NCBI GenBank assembly: GCA_030606485.1 | Contig: JAUWGH010000001.1 | Span: 62,001 to 126,000, forward strand | Length of the DNA stretch: 64,000 bases | Reading direction: 5' to 3' | Origin: Promethearchaeota archaeon | Lineage (GTDB): Archaea > Asgardarchaeota > Lokiarchaeia > Sigyniarchaeales > SOKP01 | Part shown: one piece after another, positions 15,088 through 39,019 of the stretch | How positions within the stretch are numbered: position 1 is the first letter of the stretch | How the letters are laid out: every line of letters begins with the position of its first letter | Position numbers and translations under genes: made by a program | Notes under the pieces: model-generated | Databases searched by the model: none | What the model saw: only the letters and a program-made list of their open reading frames with translations | Told to the model about the DNA's origin: nothing

Positions 15088-15089
15088 TT

Positions 15090-20172: not shown

Positions 20173-20303
20173 AAAATCACTTTTTATAATTTATTTTAAA
20201 ATTTTTTGGATTATAATTGAGATTTATCGCTACTCGTTATTAGAGAGACCAATTAGTAAATCATTTAGGAAAAAAAAAATATAAATTAAATTTTCATTAA
20301 TAA

Positions 20304-20801: not shown

Positions 20802-20812
20802 TTTCCTCTTTC

Positions 20813-20953
20813 TTATTTTTTAGATTGATAGAATATATTCGAAAATTCGAATATATCTTCCTCTTCCTTTTCCTCTTCAAGCTTTTTCTTGATCGTAAAT
20901 TCAATTTTTTCTTTTTTCTCCTTATCATTACTTTCTTTATTATTTGAATTCAT
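20813..20953 (-). CDS. Small charged 46-residue protein
   Basis: The frame from ATG 20953-20951 to TAA 20815-20813 encodes a peptide starting MNSNNKESNDKEKKEK and ending FSNIFYQSKK. It is dominated by Lys and Glu and is likely helical or disordered. It ends 12 bases before the start of the 165-residue membrane protein, whose AGAGGAAA ribosome site lies in the gap, so the two are likely co-translated. The coding assignment is uncertain because low-complexity A-rich DNA easily yields such frames. An 11-base palindrome lies inside it. Confidence 0.4.
   Translation of the reverse strand: MNSNNKESNDKEKKEKIEFTIKKKLEEEKEEEDIFEFSNIFYQSKK
20833..20856. repeat. Perfect palindrome (operator-like)
   Basis: ATATATTCGAA, two-base spacer AA, TTCGAATATAT. 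Eleven complementary bases in each arm. It lies within the 46-residue ORF about 30 bases upstream of the 165-aa gene start. It could be a regulator site or a hairpin in the message; it may also be a coincidence of AT-rich coding sequence. Confidence 0.35.
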
Positions 20954-21173
20954 TTTTTCTAGCTCTTTTCCTTTTTTTTTTTTTTGATTTTTTTTTTTAA
21001 AATCGAGAATTTATATCTTTTATTTACTTTTACTAGAGAATTTCTATTATTTAACATAGAAGTTAAATATCTTAATAAATCTAATTATTATTTTCTACTC
21101 CATTCTTATCCAAATTATATATAGAAAATGGAGATTGGCGTAGAAATAGGAAAAATCTAACTCAATCAACGTG

Positions 21174-21827
21174 ATGAATACTTTAGAAATTATGAAGGAG
21201 GACAAACATCTTTCCGATAATCATGCAATTGACTATATTGTAGAGTCTATAAAAAAAGGAAAGATTTCTGTAGAATCATTCAAGAAATTATTAAATATCT
21301 CAATTTCTAGAGAAATATGGTCACTATTGGGTTATGGCTTCTTACATAATCAATTATATGAATCTGCCGAATTATGCTTTCTTAAAGTAATCGAAAAACA
21401 TCCAGATTATTCTAATGGATATATTGATTTGGGAAATGTGTATATGGAGATGATTAAAAATATTCCAGATTATTGTCCTGATTTGAATATAATTGAAAAA
21501 TTTCTTGAAAAAGCCGTCGAGCTTGACACCAACAATGAAATTGCATGGAATAATCTGGGAACATATTATACATTTATTGATGATTTTGAAAAAGCGAAAT
21601 TTTGCTATGAAACATCAATTAAACTTAAAAATTATCACATAACACTATGGTATAGTCTATCAAGTATCTATGTCAAAAAGGGTCTATATAAAGAGTCAAT
21701 AAAATGCCTAAAAAAAGTTGTTCCAATTGATCCAAATTATACCCCTGCTAAAGAAGCGTTGGACATACTTAAGAATAATACTAAGGAACAATTATCCAAG
21801 AAAAGAATTGAATTAAGAATAAATTAA
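21174..21827 (+). CDS. TPR protein, partial duplicate of the upstream TPR gene
   Basis: A 217-residue protein. From residue 18 to the end it aligns without gaps to residues 132-342 of the gene at 18029, with roughly four in five residues identical, including NIPDYCPDLN, ELDTNNEIAWNNLGTYYTF and the shared tail NEQLSKKRIEL. The first 17 residues (MNTLEIMKEDKHLSDN) are unrelated, so the copy acquired a new start. A GTG at 21171 could extend it by one residue. It retains an intact frame and TPR pattern, so it is probably expressed rather than a relic. Confidence 0.75.
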   Translation: MNTLEIMKEDKHLSDNHAIDYIVESIKKGKISVESFKKLLNISISREIWSLLGYGFLHNQLYESAELCFLKVIEKHPDYSNGYIDLGNVYMEMIKNIPDYCPDLNIIEKFLEKAVELDTNNEIAWNNLGTYYTFIDDFEKAKFCYETSIKLKNYHITLWYSLSSIYVKKGLYKESIKCLKKVVPIDPNYTPAKEALDILKNNTKEQLSKKRIELRIN

Positions 21828-21828
21828 A

Positions 21829-22095
21829 TCAATCAGTTAAACTTACCAAGAATTTACAATTCTTGCAATATATAAAAGGACTATGAACCTTCAATTGCAG
21901 CGGACTTTCACACATGGGACTAAGATTCCTTCTTTTTGGAATAAGACTCACAATAAACTTACACTCGCTGCAATAAATGAAGGGTTTCTGAATCTTTATT
22001 TTGAATGGTCTCCCACAATCAGGACATTTGGCTTTATAATCTTCAAAAAGAGTATTGATCTTTTCAATATTGCTAATATTCTTTTGTATAATGAT
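21829..22095 (-). pseudogene. Zinc-ribbon ORF lacking a normal start codon
   Basis: An open frame of 88 codons downstream of the nuclease gene, bounded upstream by two TAA codons (22101-22096) and ending with TGA at 21831-21829. It encodes two related halves: CPDC...IYCSEC with KPF, then a degenerate CESP...IYCKNC with HSPF, each followed by KFIVSL or KFLVSL. The first half has an intact four-cysteine zinc ribbon; the second has lost one cysteine pair. No ATG, GTG or TTG precedes the first ribbon, only ATC, ATT and ATA codons. It is best read as a 5'-truncated gene; an unusual start cannot be excluded. A plus-strand frame over the same bases is a shadow. Confidence 0.5.
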
Positions 22096-22169
22096 TTATT
22101 AAAAATTTTTAATGTTATTAAATTATTGATTTTAATTTATAAGATAAACAAGAAAGTTTGTTATTAATC

Positions 22170-23255
22170 TTATGAGCGAAAGATTAAAGATTTAAACTTA
22201 TTATCTATATAATCATTTATTTCTGCATCTAAACCTAGTCTAGAAAGCTCTACAAGCTCAATAATATCATCATCGCTAAGAAATATAATATATTTATCAT
22301 CGTCTAAATAACTTTGACATCTTTCAAGTATAATCTTTTTATTTTTTACTTTTCTAAATACTAAAATGCCAAAATTGCCCACCTTTTTATTTAATCTACT
22401 AGCAAGTTGATCAAATTCTGGATTTTCTGGATCATAGCTATAATTCTTAGCTTCCATTATGACGTAATTACATATTATAATGTTATTCTTTTCGGGAAGA
22501 TTTTTAAAAAATCCTGTTTGAGCAGAATTAGTATAGATTGTATCAATATATTTCCTACCTTTGTGAATTCCTCTTTCAAATTCCATATTTCTAAAAGATT
22601 TTCTAAAAATGTATGCGATAATCTTTGAAATTAATTTATGATACTTATGTGCTTCCTTTTCTCCTGGTTTAATTTCTAATAAAAGATTTAAATTTCTTAA
22701 AATTTCAGGAATTATTTTTTTCGAAAAAAGAAGATTCCAAATTTTTTCTATATCTTTCTCACTAAATATACATGGTTTCCATTTTCTTAATTCTTTAATA
22801 ATTTCTTTTTTTAAATTATATTTTCCCTCATTGATTAATTGAAGCATAGATGCAGTTAGTTCTATTGATTTTAACTCCTTCAATTCATTATTAAATAAAT
22901 CTTCTGTTTTACATATTGCCATACCTTCTTCTGAATTTAATCTTAGGCTATATCCCTTTCTATTGAAATAATTTTCAATCTTTTCCTTATTTGCAATAAT
23001 CCTATTTTTATTATAATAATTTTCAATATTGATAAAATTTTTTTTTTCAAAGAAAACTATTTCATTCTCTAACTCGAAACTATAGGGACCAAATTCATGT
23101 CTTTGAAAGTTATAATTTAAATTTTTTATACCAAAATATTTAAGAATGAAAATAGTCTTCTGAAAAATGAATTTTCCCTTTATTTCTTCTATATTATACA
23201 AAATTTTAAGAAGTTCAAGCCTTTTTTGCCATAGATTATGCGAGAAATCATGCAT
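22170..23255 (-). CDS. SocA/Panacea-like N-terminus with restriction-endonuclease-fold C-terminus
   Basis: A 361-residue protein. Residues 8-80 (QKTIFILKYFG, then FQRHEFGPYSFELE) resemble the SocA/Panacea antitoxin-type winged-helix domain with its conserved GPYS. The C-terminal part has a PD-(D/E)XK-like core: GRKYIDTIYTN (D238), then YVIMEAKNYS (E268, K270), a helix and a Gln (FDQLASRLNKK) and a strand FGILVF. The fold would be a nuclease on DNA; the antitoxin-like domain might be the regulator. No close partner gene is next to it except the broken zinc-ribbon ORF 75 bases downstream on the same strand. It is a candidate defence or toxin protein. Confidence 0.55.
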   Translation of the reverse strand: MHDFSHNLWQKRLELLKILYNIEEIKGKFIFQKTIFILKYFGIKNLNYNFQRHEFGPYSFELENEIVFFEKKNFINIENYYNKNRIIANKEKIENYFNRKGYSLRLNSEEGMAICKTEDLFNNELKELKSIELTASMLQLINEGKYNLKKEIIKELRKWKPCIFSEKDIEKIWNLLFSKKIIPEILRNLNLLLEIKPGEKEAHKYHKLISKIIAYIFRKSFRNMEFERGIHKGRKYIDTIYTNSAQTGFFKNLPEKNNIIICNYVIMEAKNYSYDPENPEFDQLASRLNKKVGNFGILVFRKVKNKKIILERCQSYLDDDKYIIFLSDDDIIELVELSRLGLDAEINDYIDNKFKSLIFRS

Positions 23256-23742
23256 GAAATGAATTTTTTTTTTTATTAAATACTATAAAATTTTATTTTT
23301 TAAGATCGATAATTTCTCAAATATTTAAATATCAAGAGAGTGGAATGATTTTCTAAATATTAATTCACTATCTTATAATTGAGTCATCTATTTTAAAATA
23401 ATAAATCCAGCTATTGATAAATATATATCCCGAATTCAACGAAATTCTCTCAAATCCATATTTTTAAGCTAAAAAGAATAATATAGGGTTCCTAAATATT
23501 TATTAGAATAAAAAAAAATAGAATCATTATATTATTGAGAGTGAAAGGAGACTATGATTGTTTTTTATAATATTTCTCAAAGATGTAATGTTATCATATA
23601 TATTTGAATGTATTCTACTTTTATGATTATTAAATATAATATTTGATAAAAATTTGTTATTGAGATTAATACTAAATATTTAAATCTCTAAATAATTAAT
23701 ATTTTAATAGTAAAAACTGTTGTGATATTAATCCAATTGTAA
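23256..23742. other. Gene-free AT-rich stretch upstream of the NLR-like genes
   Basis: No credible protein gene. One 17-codon frame follows an AAAGGAGA element (ATG 23554, stop 23605-23607) but is too short to support. The rest is A/T-rich leader or promoter DNA between the divergent nuclease gene and the small TM gene. Confidence 0.4.
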
Positions 23743-23787
23743 TTGAAATATTTAAGATTTAAGAATATTAAAGGAAGAATAATTCAT

Positions 23788-23985
23788 ATGGGACCTATAA
23801 AAAGACTTGCAAAAATTAAATTCAGAGGTCATAGAATGCATCAAATAGGTAGTAAATTCCGTGTAAAATATCTTTTAATACCTTTTGTATTAATTAATAT
23901 TGTAGTTTTAGGGATTATTTTTTGGTATATAGAAAAATTATTCATTAAAGGTGTGGTTTTATTTGGGAGGACCAGAAGCAATTAG
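23788..23985 (+). CDS. Small basic single-helix membrane protein
   Basis: A 65-residue protein from the ATG at 23788 (a TTG at 23743 would extend it). Residues 1-27 are strongly basic (KRLAKIKFRGHRMHQ), and one hydrophobic helix spans about residues 28-50 (LLIPFVLINIVVLGIIFWYI). The last 35 bases overlap the GTG start of the NACHT gene in another frame, which suggests translational coupling. The polarity, positive inside and one helix, is that of a small membrane effector or anchor. I know of no family name. The coding call rests on the overlap and composition. Confidence 0.4.
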   Translation: MGPIKRLAKIKFRGHRMHQIGSKFRVKYLLIPFVLINIVVLGIIFWYIEKLFIKGVVLFGRTRSN

Positions 23986-26900
23986 GGGTTATTTAATTCA
24001 GACTATTATATCTCTTATAGAATCTTTAGAAAAAGATGAAGAATGGACAAGACTTGAACTAGAACCGAAAAATGAATCTGAAAAAGTAGATATTTGCTTT
24101 CATTATCCCAATAAAAAAAGAGTAATTCAAGTAAAATCCTCAGAAAATCAAATAAATTTAAATAAAATAAAAAAATGGTGTGAAGATCTAAAGAATTCCA
24201 CTGAGGCTGATGAATATGAATTAAAGTTGGTTGGAACTTCTTTTACTAAAGGTGCTTTAAATCAAATTAAATCTGGTCATTATATTGATGTCAAATTACC
24301 TGAACCTGAAACAATTAGCCTTGATAGATTGATTGAAATAAGCTCACATAGACTCTCCAAATATGTATTAAATACAGGAAATCTAATAACACCAATACTT
24401 AGTGAAAAAATTATAATCAATTTGATAACAGAATTACTTTTAAAATCCACCACTGGAGAGTGTATTCCAAGAGAGGATTTTAGACATAAAATTTTAAAAT
24501 TTTTTGCTTCAAATAAAGATGTATTTCGGGTAAAAATTTCAGATGACCTCTTAAAGGAAATAGAATATCACTATTTTACTTTCTTAATTGAGGAAATTAA
24601 TGAAAATCCTTTCATTGGAATCCCTACAGATATTAAAAGTGCATCAAAAAAATTAAATCTAGTGGATTATTTTGTTCCAATTCAGCTTCAAAAATATAAT
24701 TTTTCTCCAAAAGATAATGAGGAAAAACCCAAGATAGCAAATAAGCGATTTAAAATAAATTCAGTTTTAAGAGATAATGATAAATTAATAATTTTATCAC
24801 CTCCAGGGAGTGGTAAGACCACTCTCTTAAAAAGAATATTGTTACAATGTGTTGGTCCCGAAATTAGTAAAAAGATTCCTGATAATCTTGAAATAGATTA
24901 TATTCCATTGTATTTAAGATGTAGAAATATAAAAGTCAATCATTTCAATAATTTCTTAGAAAATCTTTACAATTTAGCAAATACAGCTGAAATGTTTGAA
25001 TTTAGTGATGAATTCAAATATTATATCAATTATTTAATTTTCAATAAGAATATTATTTTAATTATTGATGGATTGGATGAAATTTCAGATGAGCAATTTC
25101 GAGTTAGGTTTATAAAATATCTTTTGAGGTTTATTAGAAGGATAAGTACTATTAAGGTAATAGTAACATCTAGAGAACCGGGTTTTCGAATTTTAAAGGA
25201 TTATGTTACTGATGATTTTAATTTTTATACGATTACAGATTTAGATAAAGATGGTATCTTTAATTTAACAATTAAATGGTATGAAATTTTTGTAGGTATA
25301 AAAGAAAAACATCAAAAAGAAGCAAGAAATCTGGTTGAAGAAATCATAAAAACAGAGAATATATTTGAATTAGCAAAAAATCCACTTTTACTTACTACTT
25401 TACTATTTTTAAAGCGTTCTTTAGGTATAATACCTGCGAATAAGACAACTCTATACGATCAAGCGATACAATTATTAATTAAAACATGGAACGTGGAAGG
25501 GTTTAAACCCCTAAATTTAATTGATATTAGAGCACAACTTTCATTTCTATCTTATATAATGACAATCCAAGGAAAAAGCCAACTATTTCATCAAGAATTA
25601 ATGAAAATTATTCAACAAGCTCGTGAACAAATGCCAGAAGTGCTTGATTATTCAGAATTAAGCCCTTCAGATTTTCTTGAACGAGTAGAGTCTCGAACTT
25701 CATTGATCATACTTTCTGGTCGTGATCTAAAAAATGGTCTTTTAAAGGAAAAATATGAATTTAGACATAAGACTTTTCAAGAATATTTAACAGCTTTTGC
25801 AATTGTTAATGGTTATTATCCAAATCGTAAATCTACAGATAGCATTATATCTATTCTTGAACCTTATTTTGCAAACGATAATTGGGTAGAAATCATACCT
25901 ATGGTAGCAGTGTTAATGGGAAGGGATGCATATCAATTAATTAAGACCTTAATTAAATTTATAAGAAATTGGGAAGAAAAAAATAGAAGAACTCCTCTTA
26001 TATTTATGAATCCTTCAACAAAGGCTTTAATACAGTCTATTTTGGATGAGGCACAAATTCCTAAAAAATTAGTAAAAAAGGCTTTTACTATTTTACTAGA
26101 ATACTCAGCAAGGGTTTATATGCAACCAGAAAAATTATTTCTGTTTTTAAAATGTAAATATAAAGATATTTTTATAGAATTGGTTGAATCTTTTTTTATG
26201 ACAAAAGAAAATCTCCTTGATTTCGGGGATTTACTAGCCAGAATTTATAGAAGCTTTTTGAGTGAGGAAAAAGATTTCTTCCCATCAGAATTTGTGAAAG
26301 AGAGATTAAATTCTGAATATTCACTAAATCAAATTAAGAGTCTATTATTATTGATGATTTTTGCAGCAGATCTAAAAAATATTCATCAATTATCTTCAAG
26401 CCAAAAGAAAGAATTGTTTAATTTAGGCAATAAAATAGTTAATTTATTGTTAGATTCTAAAGAAAAGATAATATATTTTTCTGCAAGTTGGGCAATTACA
26501 CATTTTTTAATTAAAGGATTATGGACTCCAATTGATAATTATGAAATTTATCAGAGATTATTGAATTTATGGATAAATGAAGAAAGTGAGGATATTAAGT
26601 ATATTTTAAGTTGGGCAATTACCTCACTACCAATTATTGATAAATCATTATCCCCATTTATTTATAATAAAAGGATAGAACAACTTATATTAGAAAATTT
26701 AGAAAAAAAACCTTATGACGTCTATAAATATTATAAATTAAAAAAGCCCTTTCATGCTGCTTTAATTTTCTCGCATTATCTAAACATTCTAGAAGCAAAA
26801 GACATTGTAAAAAGTATTATTTCTTATTTTAAAATTTTAATCAGTACTACTGAGATATGTTATGAATCAAAAGATGTGATTATTAGAGACTTTAAACCAT

Positions 26901-27046
26901 TTATACCGCTTCTAAAGGCAGTAGGAGAGTCTGGAAAACCTTTATTAGATGAAATAGAAAAAATTAAAAATCTTAAAAAAGGAATGAGTTTTTATTCCAA
27001 TCTTTTGACTAAGGAAATAGACTATTTTCAATTTTTAAGTATCTAG
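23951..27046 (+). CDS. NLR-like defence protein: Cap4-type nuclease domain, NACHT ATPase, helical sensor
   Basis: A 1031-residue protein starting at GTG 23951. Residues 6-100 resemble the DUF4297/Cap4 restriction-nuclease domain: GGPEAIRGYLIQ, then D47 in EKVDICF and a QVK catalytic strand (Q60, K62) in KRVIQVKSS. Residues 265-430 form the NACHT ATPase: Walker A PPGSGKTT (286-291 for GSGKTT), Walker B LIIDGLDE (D373, D376, E377) and the sensor-like VIVTSREPG. Residues 450-1031 are helical repeat-like and probably detect an invader. This is the plan of bacterial Avs/bNACHT proteins, where detection triggers oligomerisation and DNA cutting. A small TM protein overlaps its start. The function is inferred from domain order. 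Confidence 0.75.
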   Translation: MWFYLGGPEAIRGYLIQTIISLIESLEKDEEWTRLELEPKNESEKVDICFHYPNKKRVIQVKSSENQINLNKIKKWCEDLKNSTEADEYELKLVGTSFTKGALNQIKSGHYIDVKLPEPETISLDRLIEISSHRLSKYVLNTGNLITPILSEKIIINLITELLLKSTTGECIPREDFRHKILKFFASNKDVFRVKISDDLLKEIEYHYFTFLIEEINENPFIGIPTDIKSASKKLNLVDYFVPIQLQKYNFSPKDNEEKPKIANKRFKINSVLRDNDKLIILSPPGSGKTTLLKRILLQCVGPEISKKIPDNLEIDYIPLYLRCRNIKVNHFNNFLENLYNLANTAEMFEFSDEFKYYINYLIFNKNIILIIDGLDEISDEQFRVRFIKYLLRFIRRISTIKVIVTSREPGFRILKDYVTDDFNFYTITDLDKDGIFNLTIKWYEIFVGIKEKHQKEARNLVEEIIKTENIFELAKNPLLLTTLLFLKRSLGIIPANKTTLYDQAIQLLIKTWNVEGFKPLNLIDIRAQLSFLSYIMTIQGKSQLFHQELMKIIQQAREQMPEVLDYSELSPSDFLERVESRTSLIILSGRDLKNGLLKEKYEFRHKTFQEYLTAFAIVNGYYPNRKSTDSIISILEPYFANDNWVEIIPMVAVLMGRDAYQLIKTLIKFIRNWEEKNRRTPLIFMNPSTKALIQSILDEAQIPKKLVKKAFTILLEYSARVYMQPEKLFLFLKCKYKDIFIELVESFFMTKENLLDFGDLLARIYRSFLSEEKDFFPSEFVKERLNSEYSLNQIKSLLLLMIFAADLKNIHQLSSSQKKELFNLGNKIVNLLLDSKEKIIYFSASWAITHFLIKGLWTPIDNYEIYQRLLNLWINEESEDIKYILSWAITSLPIIDKSLSPFIYNKRIEQLILENLEKKPYDVYKYYKLKKPFHAALIFSHYLNILEAKDIVKSIISYFKILISTTEICYESKDVIIRDFKPFIPLLKAVGESGKPLLDEIEKIKNLKKGMSFYSNLLTKEIDYFQFLSI

Positions 27047-27407
27047 TTTTAATCTAATAAATCTTTTTAAAAAAAATTAGTGCTTTAAAAATTTTTCATA
27101 CTTTTTTTAATCTCTCAACTATTTTTAATGCCTTATTAACTTACAATTGAAAATCATTTAATTTTTCCTTTTTCTTCTTCTTAACCTCAATTAATCTAGG
27201 CATGAGCGGATTATTATATTCTGTATTCTCTATACGATTTGAAACCATTTTAATCATTTGATTTTTTAATTACTTGTGGGCATGAAGTTAGATTAAGGAT
27301 AATTATATTTTTTATTTTTCAAGAAAATTTTAACTATCTAATTAATTTCAGAAAGTTTCTTGATTCCTAAACAAATCATTTAAAAAGTTTAATTATTTTA
27401 TTACCAT
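27047..27407. other. Intergenic stretch with a possible small minus-strand ORF
   Basis: The gap between the NLR and the NYN genes. A minus-strand frame 27257-27141 gives 38 residues (beginning MIKMVSNRIENTEYNNPL, ending KEKLNDFQL) with a Lys-rich run before its stop. The same frame continues past TAA for some 20 codons, so it looks like a truncated relic. I see no promoter or RNA of note. Confidence 0.35.
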
Positions 27408-27935
27408 ATGATGTCAAAATATAAATCAAAATTTAGACCTGAAGAAACTGAAATTTACAAAGTAGCAAATTTTACAGACTATCTTAATATAGAAATTCCG
27501 ATTAGTAAATTAGGAACAGGAAAACATTTTAATTATGTATATATCAATAGACTTGCCCGTTCTCTTGGTGAAACAATCATTTCCAAAATATACGGACCAT
27601 GGAATTACTATAAAATGGCCGCAGAACATCTTAAATCTTTTAATGTTGAGTTAGTTAATACTTATTTTTATTCAGATCTTAAACACAGAAAGGACATAAC
27701 AGATACACAGATGACAACAGATATATTAGATACATTATACAATAATCCAGATATAAATCTTTATATAATTGTCTCAGGAGATTTAGATTTTAAACCAGCA
27801 CTAATGAAAATTAAAAATGAACAGGAAAAGAAAGTAATTATAATATCTGATAAATTTTCTCTTAATCATCGGTTAAAGAAAATAGCAGATAAAGTATTAA
27901 GTTATCAAGATTTAGTAAAAATGTTTGAATTATAA
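27408..27935 (+). CDS. NYN/LabA-like domain protein (PIN-like ribonuclease fold)
   Basis: A 175-residue protein of the NYN (N4BP1, YacP-like nuclease) type. The N-terminus has ANFTDYLNI (about residues 20-28), in place of the usual D-G-N-N/S strand, with D24 as a possible metal ligand. A conserved-looking DTQMTTDILDTLY (about 100-112) and IIVSGDLDFKPALMKI (about 120-135) supply the acidic residues typical of the active site, and VIIISDKFSLNHRL follows. NYN proteins cut RNA or act in defence toxins. The gene is 26 bases upstream of the 1027-residue partner, so the pair is almost certainly one operon. The lost canonical first-strand Asn makes activity uncertain. Confidence 0.7.
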   Translation: MMSKYKSKFRPEETEIYKVANFTDYLNIEIPISKLGTGKHFNYVYINRLARSLGETIISKIYGPWNYYKMAAEHLKSFNVELVNTYFYSDLKHRKDITDTQMTTDILDTLYNNPDINLYIIVSGDLDFKPALMKIKNEQEKKVIIISDKFSLNHRLKKIADKVLSYQDLVKMFEL

Positions 27936-27961
27936 TTAGGCATGTAAGGTAGAGTTTAGAA

Positions 27962-30900
27962 ATGATTTTAAGTAGTAAGGATACGGAAAGATTTCTTTTT
28001 TTTAAAAATTTGTTTTCTGAATTATTTTCAATTAATAAAATTTATGAAGAGAAACAAACTCTAAATAAAAGTTATATAATACCAATTTTAGAAGAAGGAC
28101 TTTCAAAAAGTATATATTTATCTGCGTTACTTGTACGGAGCCAACCCATAGAGGTTTTAGAACGAGAATTTCAAAAATATTTAGACACAATGGATTTTAA
28201 TATTCAATATGGATATAGACTAAATGAAGTTTTAAAATCTTATTATAATGGTTATGTCAATTTATTACTTTTTGAATCTGAACGATTTCATTTCACCGTA
28301 CATATAAAATTTAATAAAAATCTAACTGATACATATAATCTTAGAGTGATTTTTACTTTTTGGTATGAAAATCTAAAAAAAAGAAATGATTTCGATTTAA
28401 ATTATTTACATGGAATCTATGATGATTTCATATTAGGTCATAAAATATCAAATTCTCTTGAATCCATTGGTTATTCAAAGATTCAGTTAATCGACATTGA
28501 TAATTATAACCCTCAGACATATGTAAGTCAAAAGCCAAAAAATTTCTGGGTTGAGGAGAGACCTTTTATGTGTATAACAATGATGATTGAATTGCTTAAT
28601 GCGAATCCAATTAAATTAATTAATGATTTAGTTGAACATGTCTCAAGTGTAGAAAAGATTATTATTAATAATCGTGAAAAAACTTATGGAACATCCATAC
28701 AATTCTTTAAGGAATTTTCAATTGAATTACAAAATTTTATTGCAAAGGGAAATGAATTATTTAGAATTGCGGTTGATTCGAGTGAAACAGTATCAGAAAG
28801 AGGGATTCAAGCACAAAAAAAAGAAGACCTTTTAGAAGAGGAAAGTAAAACAAGAACATTAACACCACAAATAATAATTGAGTTATTTCAAAAAGCGTAT
28901 GAACAGGATCTGAAAAAAAATGAATCCAGAGAGGATAGAGGGTTCCGCTCATTAAGTACACTTTATGAAGAATATGGGAAAAGTTACCATTTTTCACGAG
29001 CAACATTGTATAATTGCTTTAATAATTCAAAATTAGAATTATTATTAGAAAAAAAAGAAAGAAAAAAACAAGGTGGTGGTTTTAAATTCAGAATAAAAGA
29101 TAGAGAATTATATGAAGAGATTAATGAAGAAAATCTTGAAGATCAGTTTATGAAAGAGAAAATGGAAATTGAAAAAGCATTATATCATTATAATAAAGAA
29201 GAGCCTGATCTTACAATAAAAATTCTTAAAAAAGTCTTAAGATCTTCAAGTAAACAATTACAAAAGGATCATAATTTATTTTTGGGCGCAAAATTTTATT
29301 TGTCAAAATGTTATTACCAAAAAGAGACTTATCAGCAATCATATGAGCTATGTGAACAGATACTGAGGGAGGATGATTCTCTTATAGATGTAAAACATTT
29401 AAAAGTCAAATCTCTCTTTAAATTACGAAAATTTGATGAGATAAATAATCTTTTAAAATCTTATATAAATGAGATAGAAAAAATATTCAAAATTTATGAT
29501 TTTTATTATGAGAAACATAAAAAATTGATAATTGGAAAATTTACTCCTAGCTATGAATATGCGAAAGAATTTTTTAAAAAATTAAATGAAGCAGATGACT
29601 TAACCAAATTTGTCTTATTGATCAATAAAGCTGAGTTCGACAATCGAATACATTTTACCGGGCGGAGAAAAAAACTGACCTTCTATAATAATAATACGAT
29701 AATTTTTGAAAAATTATTTAGATTTCTGGCAGAATATCTAATAATAAATATTGAACTTCACCGAAGGAAATTTTTCAGTCTAATTTTGGAAAATGATTTG
29801 GAAAAAATTAGAAAATCATTATCCGAGTTTATTTATATGTTAAAAAGTGAAAGATATGATAATTTATTTGAAGATGACTATTTTTTATATTACCTATATT
29901 ACTTTAGAAATATCTTAAATATATATATCGGGGAATCCGAATTATTGCTATTTGACAAGGAGTTAAAAGATAAATTTCCTAATTTTAACTTTAGAAGATT
30001 ACCTATCGGTAGGTTTCCCAATGATCTTGCCGAAATCAGCAAATTTATAAACAAAGTAGGAAGTTATTATAGGTTTGAAAGATTACATTATTTCGATTTT
30101 CCTGATTTAGATTTTGATTTTCAGATAAGTTTTAGAGATCCTGAATTAATTATTGAGTTAAGACATATTGAAGCGAATAAAAAGGAAGGAATAAAGGCCA
30201 TTGAACATCTTATTCAACATGTAAGTACCGAATTAGAAAATGAAGAACTAATTAATAGTAATGACATTGAATTACTAAATACGAGATGGTGGAAGTATAG
30301 CTTTTCTTCTTTATATGTAGCACCAACTAAATTCCTAAAATTAATTGAAGTGGCCAAAAATCTTTGTAAACAATATAACATAAGTGATTTTATTAACCAG
30401 TTTAGTAATATATATAAAAATCTTGAACAAAAAGTAAAAAATTTGAATCAATTTAGAGCAAAAGGAAAAAGATTGATATTAAATAGGCTATTTGAATTAT
30501 TATCACTCAAGTTTTCCCTTGTCAAGGAAGAAGAATTTACATTAAACTTTAATACTATTCCTAAAGGTGTTAAAAAAGAAGATTTCTTCTATGATACTGT
30601 GATACCTGAAATTGAGACTACTATTCGAAATTATCAAGAGAAGAGATTTAAATTGACTATCAATTTACCTAGTAAATATTTTACTCAAAATATTCCAAAA
30701 CACTTGAAAACATTCAATTGGAAGTCTTCAGATGGATTATACAATTCATTAACCTTTGAGAATGTTTCAGACAAAAATTTATTAATAAAACCTGCATGTA
30801 TTTGTGGGATTTATGGAGATGAACTCTTTAAAAATAATTTAGACTCTTTACTTTACTACATTACTAGACTTCTGGAATCCAATTCAAATGAGATGATAAT

Positions 30901-31045
30901 TGAATTAAGAAGATCTAAAAATAGAAAATCTTTTGAGGATTTTTTACAACAGTTTCCAGAAGAATTGAAAAATAATTATTTTTCATTTGATATTGAAGAA
31001 TTATCAGAACCTAATAGGGTTAAAGTATTAGTAAGAAAATTATAA
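27962..31045 (+). CDS. Large 1027-residue protein with central helix-turn-helix and TPR-like region
   Basis: I do not recognise a family for the whole protein. Residues 1-270 are mixed alpha/beta without motif. Near residues 300-380 the sequence SFSRATLYNCFNN-like pattern (HFSRATLYNCFNNSKLE) resembles the recognition helix of a winged or homeodomain-like HTH, flanked by charged linkers. Residues 395-490 fit two or three TPR units (ALYHYNKEEPDLTIKILKKV and SYELCEQILREDDSL). The C-terminal half, about 550-1027, is alpha-rich with beta strands near the end, and has no Walker motif or obvious nuclease signature. Its tight linkage to a NYN nuclease suggests a sensor or scaffold that controls the nuclease. 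No signal peptide or membrane segment. Confidence 0.65.
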   Translation: MILSSKDTERFLFFKNLFSELFSINKIYEEKQTLNKSYIIPILEEGLSKSIYLSALLVRSQPIEVLEREFQKYLDTMDFNIQYGYRLNEVLKSYYNGYVNLLLFESERFHFTVHIKFNKNLTDTYNLRVIFTFWYENLKKRNDFDLNYLHGIYDDFILGHKISNSLESIGYSKIQLIDIDNYNPQTYVSQKPKNFWVEERPFMCITMMIELLNANPIKLINDLVEHVSSVEKIIINNREKTYGTSIQFFKEFSIELQNFIAKGNELFRIAVDSSETVSERGIQAQKKEDLLEEESKTRTLTPQIIIELFQKAYEQDLKKNESREDRGFRSLSTLYEEYGKSYHFSRATLYNCFNNSKLELLLEKKERKKQGGGFKFRIKDRELYEEINEENLEDQFMKEKMEIEKALYHYNKEEPDLTIKILKKVLRSSSKQLQKDHNLFLGAKFYLSKCYYQKETYQQSYELCEQILREDDSLIDVKHLKVKSLFKLRKFDEINNLLKSYINEIEKIFKIYDFYYEKHKKLIIGKFTPSYEYAKEFFKKLNEADDLTKFVLLINKAEFDNRIHFTGRRKKLTFYNNNTIIFEKLFRFLAEYLIINIELHRRKFFSLILENDLEKIRKSLSEFIYMLKSERYDNLFEDDYFLYYLYYFRNILNIYIGESELLLFDKELKDKFPNFNFRRLPIGRFPNDLAEISKFINKVGSYYRFERLHYFDFPDLDFDFQISFRDPELIIELRHIEANKKEGIKAIEHLIQHVSTELENEELINSNDIELLNTRWWKYSFSSLYVAPTKFLKLIEVAKNLCKQYNISDFINQFSNIYKNLEQKVKNLNQFRAKGKRLILNRLFELLSLKFSLVKEEEFTLNFNTIPKGVKKEDFFYDTVIPEIETTIRNYQEKRFKLTINLPSKYFTQNIPKHLKTFNWKSSDGLYNSLTFENVSDKNLLIKPACICGIYGDELFKNNLDSLLYYITRLLESNSNEMIIELRRSKNRKSFEDFLQQFPEELKNNYFSFDIEELSEPNRVKVLVRKL

Positions 31046-31127
31046 AAAATTCTAAATACATGTATTAAGTATTATTATAAAAATGAAAAGATAAGATCTT
31101 TAAGAATTATTAGAATTGAATTAGTAT

Positions 31128-32144
31128 ATGACAAGTGAAAAAGAATATTTGAACTTGCCGAAGAGAAAAAAAGAAATGATTCGGGAATTCGAAAGCTTGT
31201 TTGGTATTAAGCTCTCTAGAGAGTCAAGAGGATTCGATAAATGGGTTATAGAACGGCATATGTTGTTCGAGATTTGGTATTCGAACAAGACAGGTTATTC
31301 GAAAATAAAAAATGAACTCATGAAATTTTACGAAGAAACAGAACATAAGATATCAATAAGATCCTATGATAAACTCACCAAACAGTATATGAAATGGAAA
31401 TCGAAACATATTCCGAGATTTATTGAAAAAATGAGCGAAGATTTCGAGAAATTCGTAAAAAAAATCTTTCTCGATTATTTAAAATATCCTCCTAAAAATA
31501 TTAAACAAATTCTTAAATCACCCGAGTGGGAAATGGTCTTTTGGGAGGACTACACTCATACTCACATTGACAATTTTAAGGAGTGGTATATGGAATGGGT
31601 AAAAAAAAAGATGCCCATCAAGCGAGTTGGCGGTGAGGCTATTGTTGAATATCGTCCTACTAAATTAATAATTGATAATTCCGTTTTTGAAGATTATAGC
31701 AAATCCATCAAAAAAATCGGATATGTGGGGGAAGAATATGTGTTCTACGAAATACTTCCAAGAGAGCTGGAAAAAAATTACCCCAATTGCGACATAAAAG
31801 TGGAAGAAAATATATTGCATGTGTTAATTGACGGAGAATTAAAGGTTAAAATTGTCTGGAACAATAAATTTCGAGAATCCGGATTATCGTTCGATTTAAA
31901 AATGGATATTAATGGAAACGAATATTTCATAGAGGTTAAGGCAACTAAGTCTAACGACACTAATTTTACAATGAGCCTTGACGAGTTTAATCTTGTTAAA
32001 GAGAAAAAGGACAAATACATTCTTTATTTAGTGAACAACCTCGGCACAGCCAACCAAAGTTATTATCGATTCGAAAATTTCTTTAAGCATTACGAAGAAG
32101 GATATCTCGAAAAGCGCGATATAAGCTTTCGAATAAAGAGATAA
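31128..32144 (+). CDS. DUF3883-domain (NO VEIN-like) nuclease-fold protein
   Basis: A 338-residue protein. The C-terminal domain from about residue 196 (IGYVGEEYVFYEIL) to 310 matches DUF3883, a PD-(D/E)XK-like fold: conserved GEE, then SGLSFDLKM (D256), EYFIEVKATKS (E269, K271) and a final strand with KYILYLVNN. DUF3883 domains occur in defence and restriction proteins. The N-terminal two-thirds (about 1-180) is charged, helical, Trp-rich and of no family I know. Codon use differs sharply from its neighbours: it is rich in TTCG/TCGA-containing codons (TTC GAG, TTC GAA), a strong hint of recent transfer. The gap of 82 bases to the upstream gene leaves co-transcription open. Confidence 0.65.
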   Translation: MTSEKEYLNLPKRKKEMIREFESLFGIKLSRESRGFDKWVIERHMLFEIWYSNKTGYSKIKNELMKFYEETEHKISIRSYDKLTKQYMKWKSKHIPRFIEKMSEDFEKFVKKIFLDYLKYPPKNIKQILKSPEWEMVFWEDYTHTHIDNFKEWYMEWVKKKMPIKRVGGEAIVEYRPTKLIIDNSVFEDYSKSIKKIGYVGEEYVFYEILPRELEKNYPNCDIKVEENILHVLIDGELKVKIVWNNKFRESGLSFDLKMDINGNEYFIEVKATKSNDTNFTMSLDEFNLVKEKKDKYILYLVNNLGTANQSYYRFENFFKHYEEGYLEKRDISFRIKR

Positions 32145-32240
32145 ACTAAGATATTAAACGTACATATGGAAAATATTAAAATATATTGATAATTTTAATA
32201 ATGAAACAAGAATTGCTCTAAAAATAAATAATAAAAATTT

Positions 32241-34130
32241 CTAAATCCTTTTTGAAATGAAAGGATACTTCTTTAAAGCACTTAGCGGAATAATTTTTAC
32301 TGCTTCATCTTCAAATAAATCTCTAGTCAAGGATTCTTCAAAAGTAGTTATTATTAATTGCTTGATTAAGCCTACCTCATGTATTCTTTTTAAATATTCA
32401 ATTATTTGAGCTCTATTTTCAACATCAAGGTGTTCAAGAGGTTCATCCATTATCACGAAATTTAGGTTTGAAAAATGATGCATTATTAGAGTTTTTGTTA
32501 TTATCGTTAGGATTGTCTTCTCTCCGCCACTTAACCCTTCAAAACCTATTTCTCCTTGATCATTTTTAAGAATAGGATTCAATTTTTCATCGAAAGAAAC
32601 AAAACGGTCTTGATCGTTAAATAATTTACGCCAAATTTCCGTGATTTCTTGCGTTAATGGATGCAAATAATCAAGTTTAACCTTATATAATATTCTTCCT
32701 ATTACTTCTTGTAAGATATCGATTAAATACAGGCTGTATTTTATGTTTTGTTTCTTATCTTGAATATAAGAAGGATCTAAATCTCTTTTTTTAGCTTCTT
32801 TTCTTGCCATTTTATATATTTTATCATTAATTTCATCGATTTCATTTGTAAGATCATATTTTTTTTTTAAATTCACTTGGATTTGGTATTTTATTTCATC
32901 GAAATGCTCTTTCATTACTTTATATTTTTTGATATTTACTTTCCAATCAGGTAAATATTCTTGGATTTTATTGAACAGATAATCTTTTCTATTTAATTCA
33001 TCTTCAATATCATTTTGTTCATTTTTTAAATCACTTGTTTGCGATTTGATTTTATCAAAATTAGATTTTAAATTTCTAAAAAGATCAGCTTTCTCTCTAT
33101 AAATTTCTTCATATTCATTCGATTTAAATGTCTTATTGCAGATGGGGCAAGGTTGTTGGTTTATATCCATATCGTAATATATTTTTTCTAAATCTTTCAA
33201 TACTCCAAAAATTTTATCTAGTATTCTTAATTCTTTATCAAGTTCTTCTTTTTTAAAGTCTAATTTTTGAATTTTCTTTAGGGATTCTTCCCTCTTCTTT
33301 TTTAATTTAACAAGGTCAAGGCCAAGTTGAGTATTAATATTTAAAATATCTACATCAAAAACTTTCAAGTTAAGAATTGTACGAAACGCATCTTCCAAAT
33401 CTTCAAATTTCTTTATTTTAATACTTAAGGAATTATATTCTCTCTTTAAGTTAGATAAGATTTTTTCTACTTTGATTAATTCTCTAGATTTTTCATCCTT
33501 CTTTTGACTAAAAATGGAGATTCTTTCTGTTGGAACAGTTTCTAAAGTATCTGTTATTAGGTCTTCGATTAATATATCCAATTTCTTTCCCTCTTTTCTA
33601 TAGAACGCTTGTAGCTCCTTAATATCCACGTTAAATTCCTTCAATTGTTGGATCCCTATTAAACCTTCAATATACTCTTTGAAATTGAATTTTCTTCTTG
33701 GATATGAAAAACCTCTAAAAATATCCCCTTCACCAAAATAAACCATTCTCTTTAAAAAAACTCTTTTAGTGTGAAATAGGCTTAAAATTTTATTTTCAAT
33801 ATCTGATTTTTTATGATACACTTCGAATTGAGTAAAAAGAGAATGTTTTGACGATTTTTCATCAAATTTTCTTTCGATGCTTAATTTTTCACTATTATGA
33901 ATCATCTCCAATCGTATGAGAGTTGGTTCAGAAGCCCCTATTCGTCTCACTTTATTGAGAGAGCTTCTTCTAAGATCTCCTGTAATAGCATAATAAATTG
34001 CTTCTAATAATGAAGTCTTTCCAATAGCATTTGGACCAATTATGAAATTTAAACCTGACTTAAATTTGAAATTTAAATTTTCATGTAATTTCCAATTCCT
34101 AATCATAATACTTTCTAACATAATAATCAA
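32241..34130 (-). CDS. SMC/Rad50-like ATPase with zinc hook
   Basis: A 629-residue ABC-type ATPase. Walker A is IGPNAIGKTSLLEA (about residues 31-44), followed by a long coiled-coil arm, a CPIC zinc hook at about residues 328-331 (only one CxxC is seen, as in Rad50 hooks), a second arm, and the ABC signature LSGGEKTILT with Walker B FVIMDEPLEHLD near the C-terminus. This is the plan of SMC-type subunits of Rad50 and of the Lamassu (LmuB) defence ATPase. It abuts the next gene upstream and is the third gene of a three-gene minus-strand operon. A short open reading on the plus strand over its C-terminus is a shadow. A later Met at residue 4 could be the start. Confidence 0.85.
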   Translation of the reverse strand: MIIMLESIMIRNWKLHENLNFKFKSGLNFIIGPNAIGKTSLLEAIYYAITGDLRRSSLNKVRRIGASEPTLIRLEMIHNSEKLSIERKFDEKSSKHSLFTQFEVYHKKSDIENKILSLFHTKRVFLKRMVYFGEGDIFRGFSYPRRKFNFKEYIEGLIGIQQLKEFNVDIKELQAFYRKEGKKLDILIEDLITDTLETVPTERISIFSQKKDEKSRELIKVEKILSNLKREYNSLSIKIKKFEDLEDAFRTILNLKVFDVDILNINTQLGLDLVKLKKKREESLKKIQKLDFKKEELDKELRILDKIFGVLKDLEKIYYDMDINQQPCPICNKTFKSNEYEEIYREKADLFRNLKSNFDKIKSQTSDLKNEQNDIEDELNRKDYLFNKIQEYLPDWKVNIKKYKVMKEHFDEIKYQIQVNLKKKYDLTNEIDEINDKIYKMARKEAKKRDLDPSYIQDKKQNIKYSLYLIDILQEVIGRILYKVKLDYLHPLTQEITEIWRKLFNDQDRFVSFDEKLNPILKNDQGEIGFEGLSGGEKTILTIITKTLIMHHFSNLNFVIMDEPLEHLDVENRAQIIEYLKRIHEVGLIKQLIITTFEESLTRDLFEDEAVKIIPLSALKKYPFISKRI

Positions 34131-34868
34131 TCAAAAAGTTTTTAATCCTAAATTATCTAAAAAATCTCTAAATTCTTTTTTCCTATCCTTATCTGATTCT
34201 AGATATTTTTCAAAAACAGTAATTAATTTTTTAATTTTAATATCATCTAATTTAGACAATAAGTCCTTTTTCTCCGCTCCTAGTCGTCTTGATTCCTCAA
34301 TGAGTATAATATCTTTTAAGTATTTTTCAAAACTATTAATTATATCAGATATTTTAAAGTCATGAAACATTATTTTTGGAAAGTTATAACACTTTTCAGA
34401 AGTCAGAGTATCAAGTAAATTATCTAATTTTTTAAATTTATCTTGGATAAATTCCTTGAAATTAGAAAAATCTATAAAGCCTGAATAAAGATCATCACTT
34501 CGTAAAAGCAGAGAATGTAAATAATCATCATTGAAAATAATAAGGATACCGTCTATTCTCGGACTTTTTACAAAAATCTTGAAATACATCTTTAGATCTT
34601 TATGAGATAGTTCGATAGGTTTTTTATTTATCAAAACCACAGAATACATTTTATCTTTAATTATAATGAGAAAATTTATATAATCTAAAGAATATCTATC
34701 TGTTCTTAAATTTATTACTTTTGGTTTAATTTCCAACTTATGTATTTTTTCACTGAATTTATCAAAAATTTCCAAAAATCTTATATAAAAATCGATTAAA
34801 TCTGATAATAACCCACTTTCCTTAATTTCCATACGTCTATCTATTTCTGAAAATTCATTATCAAACAC
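34131..34868 (-). CDS. Unknown partner of the SMC-like ATPase
   Basis: A 245-residue protein with no family I can name. Residues 45-120 contain alternating hydrophobic strands and charged turns (LDYINFLIIIKDKM, VVLINKKPIEL, IDGILIIFND) that could belong to a restriction-nuclease-like fold, but no D...ExK triad is clear. The C-terminal part (about 150-245) is helical and charged, ending LDNLGLKTF. Its stop is immediately before the SMC start, and its start overlaps the end of the PIN-like gene by eight bases, so the three genes are translated as a unit. By position it could correspond to the Lamassu LmuC/accessory subunit; this is inference. Confidence 0.65.
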   Translation of the reverse strand: MFDNEFSEIDRRMEIKESGLLSDLIDFYIRFLEIFDKFSEKIHKLEIKPKVINLRTDRYSLDYINFLIIIKDKMYSVVLINKKPIELSHKDLKMYFKIFVKSPRIDGILIIFNDDYLHSLLLRSDDLYSGFIDFSNFKEFIQDKFKKLDNLLDTLTSEKCYNFPKIMFHDFKISDIINSFEKYLKDIILIEESRRLGAEKKDLLSKLDDIKIKKLITVFEKYLESDKDRKKEFRDFLDNLGLKTF

Positions 34869-35685
34869 TAATATTCCCCTCTTTTTTTGATTTAAGAATT
34901 ATATAATAGGCAATGTCAGAAGCAGAAGAATTACTTAATCGAACTTTTGCTTGTAGTGTTTCAACATTCCTGACTTCTCCTACAAATCTATTTTGCTCTG
35001 TTTCATAGAATTTAATTAATTCTCTAATAAAATGAAACTTACAATCGTTATAAATAGGTAATAAAAAAGAGATATAACCTTTAGAAATAGTATTTTTTGT
35101 CTTCAAGACATTTCCTTCATTACTAATAAATTGAGATAAACGATTTATTTTTTTTTCTAAAACAATCTTTAATTTTATATCTTCAGTTACAATTATACTT
35201 TTAAATTTTCTATTTGTAGATTCTCTTAATCCTAATAAAATTAAAGATAAATCATTTTTACTTGGCGTTTTCCTTCGAAATATAGGATATACGATAGATT
35301 TTATTTCATTTAAATCAATTTGATTTAATTGGATTATTTCAAAGTTTTTTTCAATTAATCTTTTAACTTTTTTTATATAATTGATTTTTGGATGATTTTT
35401 ATAATTTCTAAAAAAAACCGAATTATAAACTAGACTAACATCTCTACCACCTCTTAATTTGTTGGTTGTATTGAGCTCCCCATCATAAAATAATTTAGAT
35501 ACATTTATCTTACCATTAATAGAACATTTTGTAACCCAAGAAAGGAATTGTCCAAATTGAGTTAAAAAATTACTGTCAGTATTATTATTTCTTTTAAAAA
35601 TAAAATCCATTATATAGATGAGAAAATTACAATCACAAATAATAAATCCGTAATTTTCACATTTCTTACAATCTGGCATTTCCAT
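34861..35685 (-). CDS. PIN-like ribonuclease-fold protein of the SMC operon
   Basis: A 274-residue protein. It begins with a cysteine-rich start (CKKCENYGFIICDC; about residues 5-18), a possible zinc knuckle that leads straight into a PIN-type strand IICDCNFLIYIMDF with a first acidic residue. Further acidic positions in PIN order are LFYDGEL (about 66-72), SKNDLSLILLGLR (about 140-152) and SIIVTEDIKLK (about 160-170), matching D, E, D, D of the metal site. The rest of the domain is helical. PIN domains are ribonucleases and are frequent effectors. It is the first gene of the operon, so it may be the effector (LmuA-like position) of an SMC-based system. The fold is inferred from motif order; residue identity is weak. 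Confidence 0.55.
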   Translation of the reverse strand: MEMPDCKKCENYGFIICDCNFLIYIMDFIFKRNNNTDSNFLTQFGQFLSWVTKCSINGKINVSKLFYDGELNTTNKLRGGRDVSLVYNSVFFRNYKNHPKINYIKKVKRLIEKNFEIIQLNQIDLNEIKSIVYPIFRRKTPSKNDLSLILLGLRESTNRKFKSIIVTEDIKLKIVLEKKINRLSQFISNEGNVLKTKNTISKGYISFLLPIYNDCKFHFIRELIKFYETEQNRFVGEVRNVETLQAKVRLSNSSASDIAYYIILKSKKEGNISV

Positions 35686-35907
35686 AATAATAAATTAATT
35701 TTAATTTAATTAAAGAAATATATAAAATTTTGTCGATTACTGTAAAAAACAAGACATTTTTTCTATTAAAATTTATTGCAAATTGATTTTTAAATCTCTA
35801 TAATAAGAATCTGACTTAATTATTTTTGAAATAATTTTTTTATGATCCATTTTAAATAGTTCCAAGAACTTTTTTGATAATTTCTGCTTAATTTTATTGA
35901 ACATAGC

Positions 35908-36327
35908 TTAATAGTAGTAAATATCTCTTACTGCGCTACAAAAATGGGTATCAAAAACACCTTCTAACGCTTGTGCGTTTAAAGGTTCTAATTTTAATAT
36001 ATCCCCTCCGCTTCTTTTAAGAATCTCTCTTATAATTGCGGAAATTTTCTTCCATCCTAATTTTTAACATGCTAAATATCTTCGCTGTCCCACAATTAAT
36101 TCGTTTTAATTCGTTCTATTCCATCTAAATTATTATCGACGCAATTTTGAAAAAATAAATTTCCACTTTCGTAGCCAATTGATTTTCCAATCATATCATT
36201 ATAAATTCTTAAAATAATGCTGGTCATAAAAAGACAACTTATTATCAACTGAGAAAATTGGTATTAAACCGGATTCAAAATTTGGATTTTCATATTTTGT
36301 ATTCCATTTATATATTGATATTACCAT
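35908..36327 (-). pseudogene. Decayed ParB-like gene
   Basis: On the minus strand, translation of 36327-35908 gives recognisable pieces in more than one frame. The clearest is ELIVGQRRYLAC, then an in-frame TAA at 36066-36064, then KLGWKKISAIIREI, which match the ParB nuclease-like motif (GQRR-x-A-x-K-x-LGW-x-x-I-x-A-I-I-R). Upstream in another frame is DGIERIKTN, with a preceding piece starting MVISIYKWNTKYENPNF. A tail QALEGVFDTHFCSAVRDIYYY ends with TAA at 35910. Frameshifts and a stop make it a relic. It probably once belonged to the same kind of element as the intact ParB genes at 39020 and 43636. Confidence 0.6.
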
Positions 36328-36672
36328 TTTTCTCTAATAAAACTTATGGTAGATGTCTGTTGGAAATAGAAAAGAAATTTAAATATTTCAATTATACAAA
36401 TAAGATTTATATATTAAAGAAAACAAGACAAGTCTAAAGGAAATCAAATTTTAAGATCTTTTGTTATTGTTTAATTTAAGAAAATTTTGTATAAATACAA
36501 TAATTTAAAAATATTTATAACGTATTAAATAATTTCACAAAACTACATAATGATTATAATTGTAAATTGTTTTTAGTGCTTAATAATTAAGGATCAAAAA
36601 ACTTAGTATTTACTTATTTTTTAATCTAATAAGACTGATAAAAGAAAATAAACCCATTTCAAAAAAGGAAAT

Positions 36673-36822
36673 TTATTCTGGGGTAATTTCATCTAAATCT
36701 GATAAATCCAACCCTGAATCCATCTCGGAATGAACCTCCGCTAAAAATTCATTCAATAATTCTTTTAACTCCTCCCCACTCTGATAAATTAGGGAAACCC
36801 ACTTATATAAAAATTCAAATCC
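36673..36822 (-). pseudogene. Fragment of a protein-coding gene
   Basis: An open frame of about 49 codons, EFLYKWVSLIYQSGEELK and an acidic end LDLSDLDEITPE, then TAA at 36675-36673. Its upstream limit is a TAA with no start codon. The acidic, compositionally normal tail looks like a genuine C-terminus that has lost its gene. No family recognised. Confidence 0.35.
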
Positions 36823-37049
36823 TTACTTTATTTAATCTCTATTTTTAAAAAGAGTTATATAAAAAATCCTTTTAATAATAGTCTTAAAATTTGTCTAAAG
36901 TTTAAATATTAATAACTTAATAAAGTTGTTATTTAATTAAATAGAAGTTTGTAAAAAAATAGATATTTGATTCAATCGTTTTAAAAGAGTTTAAAATATC
37001 AAGTCTTTTTAAGGAAAATAACACTGATTTAAAAGAATTATACAATTTT

Positions 37050-37151
37050 ATGAGCAATTATATGACACCAAGACCAGATAAGATAAATGAAATTGAGAGT
37101 AAAAGAGATTTTATCGTAAAAATTAAGGATGAGATAAGGAGAAATGTCTGA
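37050..37151 (+). CDS. Possible 33-residue protein upstream of the 93-aa ORF
   Basis: ATG 37050 to TGA 37149-37151, encoding a charged peptide with MTPRPDKINEIESKRDF and KIKDEIRRNV. Its stop overlaps the start of the next ORF (ATGTCTGA). The frame is also open upstream to 36960 without a start codon, so it may be the 3' end of a truncated larger gene. Kept with low confidence. Confidence 0.3.
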   Translation: MSNYMTPRPDKINEIESKRDFIVKIKDEIRRNV

Positions 37152-37425
37152 TTTACTAGAAATGATTGATAATATGTTAAATAAGAAAAAAGAAACATAT
37201 CAAGAAATTCAACTGAAAAAAAATGATCTTCAGGAAGAGATCGAAATTCCAAATGCAAAAAAGGAATCTAAATATGAAAGAAACGACTTAATATTACCCG
37301 ATTCCGATACACTAAGAAAATTTTGTAGAGATTTAGGATTTAGAGGTAAAAATCTTAGGCTTGTTAATAGAGGACATACCAAATTAATTATTGAATATTT
37401 AATGAAAATACTTTTATATCTTTAG
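37144..37425 (+). CDS. Small hypothetical protein at the edge of the ParB module
   Basis: A 93-residue charged protein, probably helical in residues 1-45 (SDLLEMIDNMLNKKKETYQE) with a small C-terminal domain (LRKFCRDLGFRGKNLRLVNRGHT). No family recognised. Its ATG overlaps the stop of a 33-residue frame by the sequence ATGTCTGA, a pattern of coupled genes. The final residues MKILLYL are hydrophobic. It is followed by a 173-residue gene 80 bases away. Confidence 0.45.
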   Translation: MSDLLEMIDNMLNKKKETYQEIQLKKNDLQEEIEIPNAKKESKYERNDLILPDSDTLRKFCRDLGFRGKNLRLVNRGHTKLIIEYLMKILLYL

Positions 37426-37505
37426 AAAAAGCTAATTATCCAAGATTAATAGAATAACTCTTTAATAAAAATATTTAAAAATATGAAATTGGTGGAAATT
37501 AATTA

Positions 37506-38027: not shown

Positions 38028-38040
38028 TAGTAAAGATACC

Positions 38041-38079
38041 CTTAGTTTGTGCTCTATAGAATGATTATGCTATGACAAG
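38041..38079 (+). repeat. Imperfect direct repeat, left copy
   Basis: CTTAGTT, four variable bases, CTCTATAGAATG, then TAT and CTAT shared at fixed spacing with 42036-42074; about 30 of 39 positions agree. The two copies are 3,995 bases apart in the same orientation and bracket the RHH-ParB-HTH-DUF3800 module. Might be attachment or boundary sequence. Confidence 0.4.
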
Positions 38080-38176
38080 TTATCATTATAAAAAATGCCC
38101 GACAAAACCCCATTTTCAAACAATTTAAAGCTTCATAGTATAGAAAACACTATAAAAGCCAAAATAATATCCTTAA

Positions 38177-38431: not shown

Positions 38432-38585
38432 AATGAGAAAAACCTAGATTATATCTTTTTTTTATTTATTTTTTACTTTTCTTTTACACTCTTTATTTAT
38501 TAATTCTTTAACAAAAGAATATTTATTGAATTATTTTTTTATTATTATTAGTAAAATAGTAAAAAAATTGAACGTTGATATAAAA

Positions 38586-38738: not shown

Positions 38739-38745
38739 TATAAAA

Positions 38746-39018: not shown

Positions 39019-39019
39019 A

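Follow-up and report, generated by a model that had tools for sequence, protein, structure and literature searches.

In a 64,000-nucleotide stretch of DNA from a Promethearchaeota archaeon (the window in the following) a gene for a predicted NYN ribonuclease is directly followed by a gene for a 1027-residue protein, whose family is new as judged from sequence searches. At both other loci that carry a full-length homologue of the large protein a NYN gene is again its neighbour, yet this gene belongs to a different NYN class. Across the loci the partnership persists with a changing nuclease class, such that the recurring unit is the large protein plus some NYN. A conserved partner combined with an exchangeable nuclease would fit a pattern that is familiar from conflict systems. 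With moderate confidence we interpret the pair as an accessory, horizontally variable two-gene conflict module, antiviral or directed against mobile elements, of Lokiarchaeota-group archaea.

The gene pair and its predicted nuclease

The window belongs to an archaeal genome (G000) of 3.75 Mb in 13 contigs, which shares its GTDB family with two Candidatus Lokiarchaeota MAGs. Both genes lie on the same strand and are separated by 26 nt (Table 1), which confirms the two open reading frames and the spacing that the initial annotation of this region (27408-31045) had described. The long frame of 1027 codons is coding, since two homologues align across most of its length. The NYN identity that had been assigned to the small gene is borne out by a PF01936 match above the cut-off, with 62.3 bits compared to a gathering score of 24.2. 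The Zc3h12a-type family PF11977 gave no match for this protein, for which only PF01936 and one sub-threshold DUF were found.

Table 1. Coordinates of the gene pair, of the domains of the large protein and of neighbouring features in the window
Feature	Position	Strand	Remarks
NYN gene	27408..27935	+	175 aa; predicted NYN (PIN-like) ribonuclease; PF01936 E 9.4e-17
Predicted active site of the NYN protein	D24, N27, D99, D105, D125, D127		alignment columns
Large-protein gene	27962..31045	+	1027 aa; unnamed family; partner of NYN
N-terminal conserved domain, ~residues 1-290	27962..28831	+	conserved in all three homologues; candidate sensor
Winged helix-turn-helix, residues 302-378	28865..29095	+	model pLDDT ~77-81; alignment of three homologues
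TPR-like helices, ~residues 395-490	29144..29431	+	PF12895 E 5e-4 (below cut-off); Foldseek
C-terminal alpha/beta domain, residues 857-1027	30530..31045	+	alignment and model; missing in L007 homologue
AT-rich island carrying the pair	13860..50214	.	~36.4 kb; missing in four congeners; empty-site alignments
DarG/PDC-M36A-like protein	22170-23255	-	resembles DarG C-terminal part
NACHT protein	23951-27046	+	N-terminal PADLOC effector-endonuclease match PDLC00735 E 1.5e-17; weak EruA match
NOV_C protein	31128-32144		82 nt downstream of large gene
Rad50/LmuB/Mad3-like SMC ATPase	32241-34130	-	

The AF2 model of the window NYN (pLDDT 84.9) has a NYN/PIN-like fold. Its closest structure is VPA0982 (2qip; E 3e-9, TM 0.76), and it also matches the NYN domain of MARF1 (5yaa, E 1e-5; 6fdl), whose acidic patch serves as active site in an endoribonuclease that has been verified experimentally (PMC6294520). 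We aligned the window NYN with 14 Asgard relatives. Among these 15 sequences D24, N27, G54, D99, G124, D125 and D127 were invariant and D105 was nearly so. The initial annotation had considered the usual first-strand motif to be missing. This description was rejected by the alignment, in which the first strand VANFTDYLN pairs with VAIFWDYEN of the relatives: only the glutamate of DYEN is replaced (L26), while the aspartate and the asparagine (D24 and N27) are retained. The acidic set is present in full, i.e. the first-strand D and N followed by D, D and SGDxDF. Judged from these alignment columns the catalytic residues are intact, and the protein is predicted to be a metal-dependent endoribonuclease. 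The earlier argument that a defective NYN might depend on its partner for activity falls, because the catalytic set is complete.

Fold and active-site set are common to the window NYN and the LabA-like/MARF1 proteins of PF01936, some of which carry OST-HTH/LOTUS domains. The nearest Asgard relatives are NYN proteins of 240-390 aa, one of them with a weak LOTUS match. In contrast, the window NYN is a bare domain of 175 aa, with the winged helix and the scaffold residing on a separate partner. The PADLOC NYN profile PDLC01154 matches it weakly (E 2e-8). Like the CRISPR-associated NYN of B. fragilis (type III; PMC11346440) it is a NYN RNase of prokaryotes that lies in defence surroundings; however, no cas gene was present among the window genes scanned, and the partner is unrelated.

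The large protein combines a winged helix with TPR-like helices

The statement of the initial annotation that the large protein belongs to no recognised family was supported: neither Pfam nor NCBIfam contained a match above curated cut-offs, and PADLOC v2 returned no family for the protein or its two homologues. A test for STAND/NACHT proteins found no NTPase family in Pfam, and no recognisable enzyme domain was detected. For the N-terminal domain together with the winged helix, a Pfam search for wider families returned nothing even at an E-value of 10.

The AF2 model of the whole protein, built on three sequences, was poor (pLDDT 44.8), and residues 1-300 were modelled unreliably. Structure prediction, which had been suggested earlier, thus delivered the winged helix and the TPR-like helices but no reliable model for most of the protein. 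The best-modelled part is the winged helix, which carries an invariant GFR, a T.YN.F motif and a GGG wing in all three homologues. It falls where a possible HTH had been placed (about 300-380). TPR units had been proposed at about 395-490, and according to the model and Foldseek TPR-like helices probably start at residue 395. For Foldseek we set aside the full-length fold matches and used the TPR segment alone, which matched TPR structures over ~90 columns with an rmsd of 2.1-2.3 and a probability of 1.00. Weak TPR-like Pfam signals at ~444-494 were all sub-threshold, as were the TPR hits of both homologues at the corresponding position. Transcriptional regulators just as typically carry TPRs behind a winged helix, which counts against the conflict-module reading.

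Homologues are rare

The large protein has full-length homologues in genome G140 (L006:3245-6511; 1088 aa, 28% identity) and in genome G107 (L007:8090-10651; 853 aa, 20% identity). The latter is devoid of the C-terminal ~200 residues; because this protein is paired as well, that part is not essential to pairing. G140 contains in addition a C-terminal relative on another short contig (L008:309-1073), which is not a full gene. The distribution is sporadic: the family occurs in 3 of the 228 genomes of the phylum, all within one GTDB family, and is missing in the four congeners of G000. When 85k species genomes were scanned, the same two Candidatus Lokiarchaeota MAGs alone were detected (JAHLWS010000077.1 and JAHPZI010000030.1), and searching with a profile built from N-terminal domain and winged helix likewise gave three genomes only. 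Among viral contigs (IMG/VR), phages and plasmids no relatives of the large protein were found.

Some weaker matches were attributed to chance. A match in G130 (E 0.008) overlaps a gene that resembles phosphoribosylamine-glycine ligase, as read by eye from the translation. Additional weak hits of the A1 profile covered the TPR part only (chance or generic TPR), and an N-terminal match of this profile in G054 contained three stops; both disappeared with the N-terminal plus winged-helix profile.

Each full-length homologue adjoins a NYN gene

At all three full-length loci (3/3) an adjacent NYN gene lies on the same strand, with gaps of 26 nt in the window, 41 nt in L006 and 24 nt in L007. The L006 neighbour is a PF11977 protein of 143 aa encoded upstream of the large gene, and that of L007 a PF11977 protein of 154 aa encoded downstream, such that the NYN gene comes first in the window and in L006 and second in L007. 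Both matches exceed the gathering score of 23 (L006: E 3e-11, 43.6 bits; L007: E 3e-8, 33.9 bits), and both nucleases keep D23/N26, D94 and N111-D112 (D-x-x-N, KAD and ND motifs). Whereas these two proteins belong to PF11977, the window NYN belongs to PF01936 and is not orthologous to them.

The initial annotation had proposed to look for the same pair in other genomes and for defence genes among its neighbours, and had named as contrary outcomes a large protein that stands alone in housekeeping contexts or genes that are never found together elsewhere. The search yielded two more loci, both beside defence-type genes, and neither contrary outcome occurred. The claim of an undescribed pair of a NYN protein with a large winged-helix/TPR protein therefore stands as far as the recurrence at two other loci is concerned, but not for this particular NYN class. 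A search of open-licence literature did not bring up any report of such a pair. In a term search of an archaeal immunity survey (PMC12988326) no mention of NYN was found, and one of an Asgard defence survey (PMC11291487) did not yield this pair.

That two unrelated accessory genes were merely packed side by side in a defence island is highly improbable. Islands do shuffle genes, there are three loci only, and the nuclease of the window has no ortholog at the other two. However, the neighbouring NYN gene is the sole PF11977 gene detected genome-wide in G140, and likewise in G107, and in both genomes this single gene shares the strand of the large gene and lies at most 41 nt from it. Assuming a few thousand genes per genome, a chance adjacency in both would occur with a probability of ~1e-6 or less, and it is therefore very unlikely. 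Against the conflict-module reading count the small number of independent loci, which come from one GTDB family, as well as the variation of nuclease class and gene order among them.

The pair resides on accessory DNA in defence-type surroundings

In the window the pair is located on an island with a GC content of 26.2%, compared to 29.3% and 30.8% in the flanks. The genes for an FGGY kinase (window 12342-13892) and a SAICAR synthetase (51779-52747) are only ~1.6 kb apart in G096, G094 and G097. At the empty site of G096, G094 and G095 the window flanks abut, separated by a few to ~40 nt; in G097, which is more divergent, the flanks that can be aligned are ~0.3 kb apart. Attachment-site repeats were not found at the island ends, nor were Rfam matches within the island. 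A sigma-70-type promoter scan, a type of scan unsuited to archaea, stayed near the shuffle expectation. At the second locus (L007), flanks that are ~91-93% identical in the congener G106 enclose 14 kb in G107, in place of which G106 holds 6 kb of unrelated metabolic genes. For G140 one flanking gene was tested for synteny and was missing from 20 congeners. These data are most simply read as an insertion that the carriers acquired, and a loss in the relatives is possible. The island of the window also contains a ParB_N-HTH-DUF488 protein (43525-44700, +), and two TPR genes of the window share 300 nt with 89% identity at a spacing of 2770 nt (18447-18746 and 21217-21516), pointing to a recent duplication.

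Several neighbours of the pair resemble defence genes (Table 1). For the DarG-like protein no match to the N-terminal part of the antitoxin DarG was found. The NOV_C gene was considered as a third member of the module and discarded, as it is not conserved at the other loci. The SMC ATPase is part of a group on the minus strand (32241-35685) together with a 245-aa protein and a 274-aa protein with PIN-like motifs by eye, which is possibly Lamassu-like. L006 is accompanied by an HNH protein with similarity to type IV restriction enzymes as well as by a DUF4209 protein of PDC-S39-like type, and L007 by a GmrSD_N-KTSC protein (NsnA E 7e-71, PD-T4-2_A E 4e-39) with a RiboL-PSP HEPN. All three loci thus lie in defence-type surroundings, which for the function is suggestive only; defence-like genes are generally common in these genomes.

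A small nuclease and a DNA-binding-type partner that form a tight operon within a mobile island would also suit a toxin-antitoxin-type module, and PIN-like toxins are known in such systems. The large partner would then silence a toxic NYN RNase and autoregulate the operon via its winged helix, and partner loss would lead to defence or addiction. We consider this unlikely, since the partner has six times the size of the toxin and contains other conserved domains besides its TPR scaffold, the nuclease gene comes second in L007, and one partner family serves two NYN classes.

We consider it decidedly improbable that the pair serves RNA processing or regulation and takes no part in conflict. In this case the large protein would act as a regulator or an RNA-binding scaffold, and the NYN protein would process a specific cellular RNA. 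MARF1-type NYN enzymes do act in RNA turnover (PMC6294520), and the CRISPR-associated NYN of B. fragilis was proposed to trim crRNA (PMC11346440). A presence in 3/228 genomes, the absence from all four congeners and the location on an island argue against such a cellular function.

Proposed mechanism and comparison with known systems

For the conflict module we infer a physical interaction of the two proteins as well as a direction of control, a trigger, an RNA target and an antiviral effect as follows. The large protein would recognise a sign of invasion, either invader nucleic acid via the winged helix or a ligand via the N-terminal domain. Its TPR scaffold would hold or recruit the NYN protein, and the large protein would license the interchangeable nuclease for RNA cutting. 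The NYN protein may then cut transcripts of the invader, or it may cut host RNA and thereby arrest growth in response.

In its proposed working alone this scheme resembles mammalian ZAP-KHNYN, where the non-catalytic sensor ZAP recruits a separate endoribonuclease with NYN/PIN domain, KHNYN, against viral RNA (PMC12709174; PMC6615859). ZC3H12 PIN domains have been reported as structural neighbours of the KHNYN domain (PMC12709174/PMC6615859). The nucleases of L006 and L007 fall in the Zc3h12a-like family PF11977, while that of the window is a PF01936 protein. ZAP zinc fingers and KH domains were not seen in the pair, and a sequence relation was not found. A second comparison is provided by the bacterial two-gene defence system DS-5 (DefensePredictor), which needs both the catalysis of its PIN ribonuclease and a DUF5830/AcrIF4-like partner that does not act as an antitoxin (PMC13092281). 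The partner domains differ and the host here is archaeal; Pfam detected no DUF5830 in the large protein. By the tests made, the pair belongs to neither ZAP-KHNYN nor DS-5.

NYN genes of the PF11977 type beside other large proteins

PF11977 domains occur in 95 of the 228 genomes of the phylum, and several adjoin or are fused with large ATPase, helicase or TPR proteins. At three loci of the Lokiarchaeota group (L091:2613-6138, L086:2786-6578 and L087:6279-11368) a short Zc3h12a-type NYN gene lies beside genes for proteins of 951, 1095 and 1546 aa, respectively. TPRs are present in the large proteins of L091 and L087, and an N-terminal winged-helix-like segment was seen by eye in those of L086 and L091. 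These pairs share with the window pair the combination of a short NYN with a large neighbour of winged-helix/TPR type; however, the large proteins have no similarity to the window family, and the L086 and L091 pairs are divergently transcribed. They perhaps represent a wider theme of NYN plus scaffold.

At L094:5604-8672 and L095:985-4014 (both on the minus strand), from two genomes of the same family, the PF11977 NYN domain is part of a protein of 1010-1022 aa with a P-loop-like GKNGVGKS motif at its start (ABC/SMC-like by eye), and a similar gene of 201-217 aa lies directly downstream. This arrangement is a possible ATPase-NYN module. In a 1327-aa protein of L096 (4857-8840, -) a Zc3h12a-type NYN is fused to a UPF1-type SF1 helicase (AAA_11/AAA_12), and two more very large genes flank this gene. 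The genome of the window holds a ParB-like protein near a Zc3h12a-type NYN gene (L092:6412-8917).

Implications

As a long shot, the locus could serve Asgard immunity by means of non-catalytic sensors of a new family, which recruit an interchangeable NYN protein, LabA/MARF1-like or Regnase/KHNYN-like, against invader RNA. It would thereby be a prokaryotic counterpart of ZAP-KHNYN-type immunity among the archaea related to eukaryotes. If the pair operates as the conflict-module reading suggests, an RNA-targeting, partner-licensed NYN system would join the little-tested Asgard defence repertoire. The two NYN classes on one partner would offer a direct test of the large protein as specificity and licensing subunit. 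Since PF11977 is widespread in the phylum, with several members beside or fused to large proteins, the locus may exemplify a broader undescribed use of Regnase-type nucleases in archaea.
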